Source: Candidatus Altimarinota bacterium
Lineage (GTDB): Bacteria; Patescibacteriota; Gracilibacteria; BD1-5; UBA6164
Direction: 5' to 3'
Length of the DNA stretch: 64,000 nt
Assembly (NCBI GenBank): GCA_027019405.1
Contig: JALUWO010000386.1
Coordinates: 85,894-149,893 of the forward strand
Under the pieces are notes generated by a model. That model saw only the letters and a list, made by a program, of their open reading frames with translations. It was not told the DNA's origin and did not search any database. This document shows positions 10,259-13,200 of this stretch, piece by piece. The translations under genes were made by a program, and so were the position numbers. The stretch's first letter is position 1, and every line of letters begins with the position of its first letter.

Positions 10259-13200
10259 ATGTACAACCACAAAGAAATAGAAAAAAAATGGCAAAATTAT
10301 TGGGAAGAAAATAAAACTTTTAAAACAGAAAATGATTTTTCCAAACCAAAATATTATACTCTTGATATGTTTCCCTACCCTAGTTGAGCAGGATTGCATG
10401 TAGGTCATCCAGAATGATATACTGCTAATGATATTATAGCTAGATATAAAAAAGCAAAATGATACAATGTACTTCATCCAATGGGATGGGATGCTTTTTG
10501 ATTGCCTGCTGAAAACTATGCTATAAAAACATGAACTCATCCAAGAACTACAACAGATAAAAATATAAACACTTTTAGAAAACAAATAAAATCTCTTTGA
10601 ATAAGCTATGATTGGGATAGGGAGATTGATACTACTGATCCTAAATACTATAAATGGACTCAGTGGATTTTTTTGAAAATGTTTGAACATGGTCTTGCTT
10701 ATGAACAAGATTTACCAATAAATTATTGTCCAAGCTGTAAAACAGGTTTAGCAAATGAAGAAGTACTAAATGATTTTACTTGTGATAGATGTTGAACAAA
10801 AGTAGAAAAGAAAAAAATTAGACAATGGGTGCTTGCTATTACTAAATATGCAGATAGATTACTAAAAGATGTAGATAAACTTGATTGGCCAGAAAGTATC
10901 AAAGAAATGCAAAGAAACTGGATTTGAAAATCTGAAGGGTGTGAATTTGAGATGAAAAAAGCTCCTCTCTCTAACTCTCTCCTAAAGGAGAAAGAACAAG
11001 AACAAAAATGATCTACTTCCTCTCCTTCAGGAGAGGATTGAAGTGAGGACTCCATAAGAGTCTATACTACAAGAATAGACACAGTTTTTGGTATGACTTA
11101 TGCTGTTTTAGCTCCAGATCATAAAGATGTAGAAAAGTTTATAACTCCTGAACAAAAAGAAGTTTGTGAGAAATATATTGAAGAAGCAAAGAAAAAATCT
11201 GATTTAGATAGAACAGCTGAGAATAAAGAAAAAACTTGAGTTTGGACAGGTTCTTATGTAATTAATCCTTTTAATGGAAAAAAAGTTCCTCTTTGGATAG
11301 CTGACTATGTATTATGAAATTATGGTACATGAGCAGTAATGGCTGTACCTGCTCATGATACTAGAGATTTTGCATTTGCTAAAAAGTATAATTTACCAAT
11401 TATTCAAAGTATAGCACCATATATTGTGTATGAATGAAAAGATGCACCTAGAGATTGAATAGAAACATTAAATAGAAAAACAATAGATATAATTTTAGAA
11501 AATGAAAAATGAGAAATTTGTTTACAAATAGAAAAACACTCTAATTGAGAACATATACATTTTATTTGATGAGGAATTGAAGAATGAGAAACTGAAATAG
11601 AAGCAGTAAAAAAAGAGTTAGTAGAAGAAACTTGATATACAGACTTTGAGATAATTTGACCTATAAATATGTCATTTTTTTGTGGTATATGATATAGAGC
11701 TAATAAAAATAAAAATCAAAAATGTACATGAAGAGCTTTTTATATCAAATTAAAATCAAGTAAACAAATAAAATCTGAAATAGATGAATGAAAACATAAT
11801 ATAAAATGGGTAAAAAAAGAAGAAGTAACAAGATTAATTAACTGGGATGTTCATTTAAAATTCTGGGATAAATTTCACAATTGAGAAAAAGCTTTTACTG
11901 AATACTGAATTCTAGTAAATTCTTGAGATTTTGATTGACTAACTTCAAAAGAAGCTCAAACTAAATTAATAGAATTTGCTACAAAAAATTGATTTGGTGA
12001 GAAAAAAGTAAACTATAAACTTAGAGATTGGTTATTTTCTAGACAAAGATATTGGGGTGAACCTATTCCTTTGATTCATTTAGAAATTCCTAATATTAAA
12101 AAACTTCCTCATATAAATAATATTTCTGAAGCTACAGATAAAAACTTAGCCTATATCCTAAAAAGAGAACCTAAATCTTGAGAAAATACTGCTTGAGCAG
12201 TTTGTCATCATACTTGAAAAATTAGAGAATTAATTATAAACTGAAAAGTATTTTCTAAAATTTATGATTGAATTTATGGAAAAATAGTTTGTGATTATAA
12301 CTTGCCTCTAGAATTACCTGAAGTAAAAAATTTTGCTCCAGCTTGAGATGGACAATCTCCTCTTGCTAAAGTTGATAATTTTGTAAATGTAAAATTAGCT
12401 GATAATTTAGTTTGAAAAAGAGAAACAAACACTATGCCTCAATGGTGAGGAAGTTGTTGGTATTATCTTAGATATATGGATCCCCATAATGATAATGCTT
12501 TAGTTGATCCTGAAATAGAAAAATACTGGGGACAGATTGATTCTTATGTAGGTTGAGCTGAACATGCTGTATTACATTTACTTTATGCAAGATTTTGGCA
12601 TAAATTCCTATTTGATATTTGAGTAGTTAGCCATGATGAACCTTTTTATAGACTTAGAAATCAAGGTTTAATTCAATCTTATATCTATGTTACAGATAAG
12701 TGACAATCAATTCACCAAGATTTAGTTGAAGAAAAAAATTGAGAGTATTTTCATAAAGAAACTGGAGAAAAACTTACTCAAAAAATCTGAAAAATGAGTA
12801 AATCTCTAGGAAATGTAATAAATCCTGATGATATAGTTAAAGAATATTGAGCTGATAGCTTAAGACTTTATGAAATGTATATGGCAGAATTTAAAGATTC
12901 AGCTCCCTGGGATACAAAAAATATTATTTGAGTAAGAAGATTTTTAGAAAAAACTGAAAGACTTTATACTTCAGAGGCAAAAATAGCAAAAAATGATGAA
13001 GAAACTATAAAATTACTTCATAAAACAATAAAAAAAGTTGGAGAAGACATTGAAAATTATAAATTCAATACAGCAATTGCTAGTTTAATGATTTTGGTAA
13101 ATAATTGACTTCCAAAAGATGAAAATTTAACTAAAGAGTTCAAAGAAAAATTAGCTATAATTCTCAGTCCTTTTGCTCCTCACTTAGCTGAAGAATTATG

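Follow-up and report, generated by a model that had tools for sequence, protein, structure and literature searches.

A probable decayed pair of triplex-motif repeats in leuS of a gracilibacterium and related in-frame inserts in its order

We analysed a palindromic segment of 87 bp within the leucyl-tRNA synthetase gene leuS, which lies in a 64-kb stretch of DNA (the window, meaning the whole stretch analysed). From sequence comparison we consider it likely, with a probability of roughly 0.82, that this segment is a decayed head-to-head pair of TM, a putative triplex-forming repeat, which was probably inserted into a short loop of the enzyme and is predicted to be read as a disordered linker. 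The leuS insert does not stand alone: many genes are hit, and in some relatives the same site holds unrelated palindromes.

An imperfect palindrome in a loop of leucyl-tRNA synthetase

The assembly that holds the window (the home genome below) comprises 2.70 Mb in 504 contigs and is 93% complete. leuS contains fifty TGA codons and has an open frame only when these are translated as glycine (code 25), and the nearest named LeuRS homologues carry the label Candidatus Gracilibacteria. The features are, in window coordinates:

10259..13465, + strand: leuS, leucyl-tRNA synthetase, 1068 aa, read with TGA = Gly (code 25); TIGR00396 leuS_bact, 1035.5 bits
10963..11049, + strand: in-frame insert, about residues 236-264 (APLSNSLLKEKEQEQKGSTSSPSGEDGSED), the probable decayed head-to-head TM pair
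10964..11007, + strand: putative first TM copy, sense, with an A-rich tail; core 10964-10982, 3/16 mismatches; reads PLSNSLLKEKEQ
10977..10991, + strand: hairpin of the first copy, CTCTCCTAAAGGAGA
11009..11011, + strand: in-frame TGA codon (Gly, residue 251), between both copies
11017..11049, − strand: putative second TM copy, antisense; core 11030-11048, 3/16 mismatches; reads approximately SSPSGEDGSED
11019..11036, − strand: hairpin of the second copy, + strand CCTCTCCTTCAGGAGAGG; exact pattern CTCTCCTTCAGGAGA at 11020-11034
11039..11041, + strand: in-frame TGA codon (Gly, residue 261), within the antisense copy

The two arms of the palindrome (10963-10991 and 11021-11049, 29 nt each) are 79% complementary, and each contains a hairpin (10977-10991 and 11020-11034), as the original prediction had it; both hairpins are present, but that of the first arm is decayed on its 3′ side (GGAGAAAGAA versus GGAGAGGGAA in the hemW copy). 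The predicted relative GC-richness was borne out as well, with 41% in the insert against 28% in leuS and 23% in the window. Elsewhere in the 64-kb window the exact hairpin pattern is absent, and 0 of 100 dinucleotide shuffles matched it; folding of the 106-nt DNA strand gave z = −3.1, with none of 200 shuffles equally stable. When the TM core (16 specified bases) was searched in the window at up to 3 mismatches, the two arms were the only places found, on opposite strands, and 0 of 100 shuffles matched; the leuS pair matches the TM blocks only with 3/16 mismatches per core. Other GC-rich hairpins in the window were sought with stems of at least 9, a setting to which the 7-bp leuS stems are invisible; four were found, none of them TM-like. 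A terminator-like 13-bp hairpin (AAAGAGGAAGGG..CCCTTCCTCTTT) lies at 19242-19271.

We infer translation of the insert from open frames. The claim that the palindrome is translated without breaking the frame holds solely under code 25, because the insert contains two in-frame TGA codons. The predicted tryptic peptide of the LeuRS insert in this species is GSTSSPSGEDGSEDSIR. When compared with PDB structures, the insert is located between the positions of T. thermophilus LeuRS (1h3n) residues 232 and 237, directly ahead of the editing domain, in agreement with the loop that the original prediction put before the CP1 TTRIDT motif. Residues 240-261 lie between strands 224-234 and 265-270 in an AlphaFold2 model whose quality is modest (mean pLDDT 71.5, pTM 0.48); their pLDDT is below 50, as is that of several other segments. 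Further downstream, a NUDIX domain (PF00293, 47.9 bits) is inserted at residues 406-527 (window 11474-11839); PF00293 was found in 18 of the 120 LeuRS homologues listed, and PF01725, PF06821 or PF09391 in others.

Relation of the insert to the TM repeat

In its intact form TM reads CCTCACCC-NNN-CCCTCTCC-loop-GGAGAGGG (third block GGAGAGG), the reverse complement of the E. coli TMECO. The blocks CCCTCACCC, CCCTCTCCC and GGGAGAGGG were found exactly or nearly so in copies of relatives, and in two places of the home genome (L469 and L502), the first being one perfect TM copy outside any long ORF. In another gene, locus L211 of genome G013, a TM copy and a downstream antisense copy form an intact in-frame pair, read through as KPHPNPLLKEREQATKISAASSSPGGEELGGG, compared with APLSNSLLKEKEQEQKGSTSSPSGEDGSED in leuS. 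Sense TM copies in relatives are translated as PHPNPLLKEREQ, to be compared with the first leuS copy, and the SSPSGEDGSED of the second leuS copy is comparable to SSSPGGEELGGG in the L211 pair. Since order and orientation are the same and the peptides of L211 and leuS align, the leuS segment is probably a decayed version of such a pair. The divergence of the leuS pair, 3/16 mismatches per core, counts against this explanation. An antisense partner (at most 5 mismatches) is situated 40-130 nt downstream in 30 of the 145 copies examined in nine genomes of the order (see below), and within 90 nt upstream in 2 of 145.

Within the home genome, the hairpin is present in frame, in different phases, in hemW and pyrG, it also lies at two places without a long ORF, and a galE gene (named from its sequence) contains two in-frame TM copies. 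A further match, C144:57964, in an ORF of 238 aa, may be native sequence and was left out of the counts. The original prediction had stated that the absence of any other copy, or conservation of the same peptide in leuS of distant relatives with a diverged, non-palindromic DNA sequence, would speak against a mobile-like element; the search of the home genome found further copies, and the leuS site is empty in 15 of the 25 loci that could be read. The recurrence of the family and the empty sites bear out the view of a mobile-like palindromic element in frame within leuS.

Within the order, TM matched at up to 2 mismatches in 47 of 77 genomes, some of them by chance, and an exact match was found in 26 genomes of the phylum (from a draw of 286). 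The reversed-pattern control was high at 2 mismatches in many genomes and was set aside, the motif being nearly its own mirror image; with 1 mismatch allowed the control gave 0 in 4/4 genomes. The original prediction had named dispersed copies in other phyla, and a scan of named genomes indeed gave at least 80 TM loci in Proteobacteria, Cyanobacteria, Chloroflexi, Planctomycetes, Nitrospirae, Omnitrophota, Verrucomicrobia, Parcubacteria and others. As judged from these matches, cross-phylum distribution alone does not demonstrate recent transfer of TM between phyla. A phage search gave nothing beyond a 21-base match.

Search for a mobilising transposase

The layout of the pair and its hairpins resembles a REPIN, and TM might be a REP that is mobilised by a RAYT (REP-associated tyrosine transposase), with the 87-bp pair as a classical REPIN. 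RAYT-family matches (NCBIfam NF047646, E 0.001) occur in 26 of the 77 genomes of the order, although none is above the family cut-off and some are other IS200-like transposases, and the home genome has a RAYT-like gene of its own. We nevertheless regard this explanation as unlikely: in 30 loci with RAYT matches, examined together with flanks of up to 1.5 kb, TM is absent at up to 3 mismatches (the best has 4), the TM-rich genomes G004, G011 and G037 gave no RAYT match, and the RAYT-like gene of the home genome holds a different palindrome, GGTACCGGTACC. No transposase linked to TM was found with Pfam Y1_Tnp in the home genome or with NF047646 in the 77 genomes, 30 matches being inspected.

The palindrome GGTACCGGTACC is present at 12 places of the home genome (9 exact, 3 with one mismatch), in G000:C86:11334-11962 (L012), C20:82138-83012 (hemW, read in frame), C276:24360-24390 and C386:48937-48970; they cluster in and beside the RAYT-like gene and in hemW. 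At three other loci of this genome (L008, L010 and L011) IS200-like transposase genes adjoin ORFs that look TnpB-like by eye.

Filled and empty sites in orthologous genes

Among 30 leuS loci, the 25 readable ones comprise 15 empty sites, six with short inserts (the home genome included) and four with domain-sized inserts. Among the short inserts of relatives, those of G009 and G037 are TM-like, that of G018 is a GC-rich pair, and those of G019 and G006 are clearly unrelated palindromes. The G019 leuS (L068) carries a perfect 28-nt palindrome, GTAGTGAACGCGGGCCCGCGTTCACTAC, in frame in the same loop. Folding z values for the short inserts of L058, L059, L060, L068, L073 and L080 were −6.8 (home genome), −8.8, −5.2, −4.2, −2.6 and −1.7; folding alone proves little for the weakest of them, since one empty site (L077) scores −4.1. 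At the loop of the palindrome, leuS of four relatives (L064, L066, L070, L072) encodes domains of about 150-190 residues, three of which resemble alpha/beta hydrolases by eye; homologue P0079, which has the same stretch as L064, is listed with PF06821.

An insert that is kept open in an essential enzyme, at a loop where many kinds of insertion recur, whole domains included, could have been co-opted for LeuRS function. We find such true domestication quite improbable: among the 120 homologues listed (our protein included) the loop has at most 21 residues in 82, against 22-60 in 19 and more in 19, the inserts at this site differ in sequence, and our own copy has diverged from the TM core.

That the palindrome arose in place and is not mobile, a short sequence having been copied inverted by template switching at replication, is more doubtful still. 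The unrelated palindromes among the other leuS inserts are what a palindrome-prone site might give, yet the same family is found in hemW, pyrG and galE of the home genome, outside genes and in dozens of genes of relatives, pairs of the same layout occur elsewhere, and the TM core is present in both leuS arms.

The SPLPTPLLKEREQ insert of HemW is absent in 12 of 12 relatives; two further HemW loops contain extra peptides in our protein, and several relatives have repeat-like peptides of their own there. At the PyrG insert site nine of ten relatives are 7-16 residues shorter, and the tenth (L123) has a different peptide of equal length.

Strand and phase of TM copies inside genes

We counted TM copies (at most 1 mismatch) in nine TM-rich genomes of the order, which were picked for their listed TM places; G051 and G052, likewise TM-rich, are outside the sample. 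Duplicates and copies less than 300 nt from a locus end were removed. For G004, G009, G011 and G018 the count covers 108 of 137 places, and G013 and G037 contribute 3 and 6 copies, both holding more. Read-through ORFs of at least 120 aa contained 107 of the 145 copies: 14/15 in G008, 7/8 in G001, 4/5 in G020, 3/3 in G013, 5/6 in G037, 26/27 in G011, 26/32 in G018, 17/32 in G004 and 5/17 in G009. Of random positions in the same loci 80% (2092/2600) were in such ORFs, versus 74% of the TM copies, and therefore TM does not prefer genes overall but merely does not avoid them.

Orientation is strongly biased, with 102 of the in-ORF copies sense and 5 antisense. The sense copies stand almost only in two phases (PHP 51, SPQ 50, LTP 1), so that nearly all in-ORF copies use two of the six frames available. 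Stop-codon availability predicts neither bias: among the 145 elements the PHP, SPQ and LTP phases are open in 106, 64 and 97, and the three antisense phases in 102, 133 and 58. With copies treated as independent, the rare phase has a binomial P of 6e-19 and the antisense orientation one of 7e-27; these values are optimistic because copies that share a site or stand in tandem are not independent, and by eye genes of different genera share insertion sites in pcrA, galE, ligA, rnr and sufC, besides a tandem of three in L401. This locus (in G011) has one ORF with three TM copies at 150-nt spacing, a repeat protein that includes the element.

In a typical element the hydropathy of the used sense phases is −1.64 and −1.30, that of the unused sense phase −0.57 and that of one antisense phase −1.29. 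Hydropathy can thus explain the phase bias but not the strand bias, given the antisense value, which is on a par with those of the used sense phases. We take the phase bias to reflect selection on the peptide, and the strand bias may stem either from selection or from biased insertion.

The same pattern bears on whether the hairpin need be read at all. Bypassing elements are known in some yeast mitochondria, and the hairpin inserts sit within essential genes; a hairpin that ribosomes jump over, or that is cut out of the mRNA, would, however, need no open frame. Yet 102 of 107 in-ORF copies are sense and 101 of these 102 are in two phases, as expected if the peptide is made, and we consider skipping or removal extremely improbable.

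Outside the order the picture differs. In other taxa, 37 of 81 copies at the loci listed were in ORFs (19 sense, 18 antisense), compared with 1391 of 1600 random positions, many of these genomes being GC-rich with long chance ORFs; the 81 stem from up to 112 copies at the loci mentioned above, copies less than 400 nt from an end or with another middle base having been dropped. The strand split of the nine genomes differs from that of the other taxa listed with a Fisher P of 7e-9. Nor is the in-gene pattern general in the phylum: in three genomes of the same class (G168, G335 and G352; 37-45% GC) 0 of 10 TM copies are in ORFs, with 5/31 in G144, G158, G226 and G086 together and 3/13 in G221, G219 and G135. 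In G211, G264 and G327 (58-59% GC, two of them read with code 25 by automatic guess) 12 of 13 copies are in ORFs on mixed strands, a test that is unreliable here because high-GC genomes give long chance ORFs.

A requirement of TGA = Gly for in-gene copies was considered and dropped, because G259 (code 11) and G248 show the pattern. Of the 13 copies in G259, a genome read with code 11, 12 lie in ORFs, 8 of them sense (SPQ 6, PHP 2, LTP 0) and 4 antisense, and in G248 both TM copies are in ORFs and sense. Code 25 leaves one antisense phase open in 133 of the 145 elements, whereas with code 11 that phase is open in just 1 of 145.

Twenty host ORFs were submitted to NCBIfam and 19 matched, several names being best matches below the curated cut-off: murC, ligA (twice), an AddA/UvrD-like helicase, rnr (three times), sufC, sufS, an Fe-superoxide dismutase, clpB, leuS (at another site), a dihydrolipoyl-dehydrogenase-like enzyme, an FAD enzyme, pcrA (twice), galE, ileS and thiI. 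In the superoxide dismutase the insert coincides with a segment that is shorter in the best solved relative. The ileS product of G018 (L454) combines a TM insert with a phosphoglycerate-mutase/CobC-like domain at residues 736-906.

Discussion

The TM pair likely arrived in leuS by an insertion event, like other small mobile palindromes. Insertions would land at many positions within genes, and selection would remove copies that break the frame or encode ill-suited peptides, so that mostly proline-rich, hydrophilic peptides in surface loops would remain. The family has likely spread in this way through protein genes as tolerated and probably disordered linkers. Reading TGA as glycine may help inverted TM pairs to stay open, because an antisense copy would otherwise meet TGA stops; single copies would not need it.

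More tentatively, and at somewhat less than even odds, TM may in this order be a gene-dwelling element, whose sequence and loop length are held such that either of two phases encodes a proline-rich, hydrophilic linker; this would let it multiply in essential genes, with shared landing loops in leuS, galE, ligA, pcrA, rnr and sufC.

TM has been described from E. coli as an intergenic repeat, and a role in genome instability has been proposed for it; here it is a coding insert in dozens of genes, including many housekeeping genes, with marked biases of strand and phase. This constitutes a natural experiment on where proteins accept insertions, on the survival of small mobile DNA in genomes dense with genes and on how an altered stop codon widens read-through. 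Since orthologous genes can be inspected directly for filled and empty sites, the question of what moves TM also becomes easier to test.

Comparison with known systems

The work of Holder et al. 2015 (PMC4666352) describes TM/TMECO as a dispersed intrastrand triplex motif, ‘always located intergenically’ in E. coli, with single copies and inverted pairs and with no mobility genes found by its authors. The likeness is close: the reverse complement of the E. coli copies in Table 1 of that paper is CCCTCACCC-TAA-CCCTCTCCC-loop-GGGAGAGGG, and single copies as well as inverted pairs occur both there and here. In contrast to the intergenic E. coli copies of that account (PMC4666352), those of this order are largely in genes, in frame, sense and in two phases; intergenic location, which does not hold here (107/145 in long ORFs), is a property of E. 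coli outside the sequence definition of TM. The leuS, hemW and pyrG copies of the home genome also have a shorter stem.

The parallel with Rickettsia palindromic elements (RPE) drawn in the original prediction is apt, both being palindromes in frame in conserved protein genes. According to PMC2229807, RPE (Ogata et al. 2000 and later) are also found intergenically, and an RPE-bearing guanylate kinase was shown to be active. They are given there as Rickettsia-specific and 105-146 bp long, and host group and genetic code differ; the likeness of TM to RPE is one of behaviour. GTAG/CGTC REPs are, as PMC3733652 presents them, small hairpins, often dimers, that occur in frame within ORFs of several species; dimer or grouped inserts encode 20-30 residues, and same-site insertions are reported in two recB genes. 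TM shares with them the small hairpins, in part paired, in frame inside ORFs; theirs are tagged GTAG or CGTC at one end, whereas the upstream and tail consensus of the 102 in-gene TM copies has no fixed tag, some tails containing GTAG. RAYT-linked REPs differ in that TM is found (up to 3 mismatches) at 0 of the 30 RAYT-match loci. The inverted two-repeat unit of a REPIN is seen in leuS and in 30 of 145 copies, but most copies have no such partner. PARCELs (PMC2996958) are likewise palindromic coding repeats spread over distant taxa; they form tandem 25-residue amphipathic domains in ORFs without assigned function, in contrast to the single linkers in housekeeping genes described here.

In the titles and abstracts searched, a coverage that leaves out most subscription journals, we found no report of TM inside genes, of its strand and phase bias or of such inserts in Gracilibacteria. 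In-frame palindromes as such are already known from the Rickettsia RPE and from intragenic REPs; new here, as far as the literature was searched, is TM inside genes with a bias of strand and phase.
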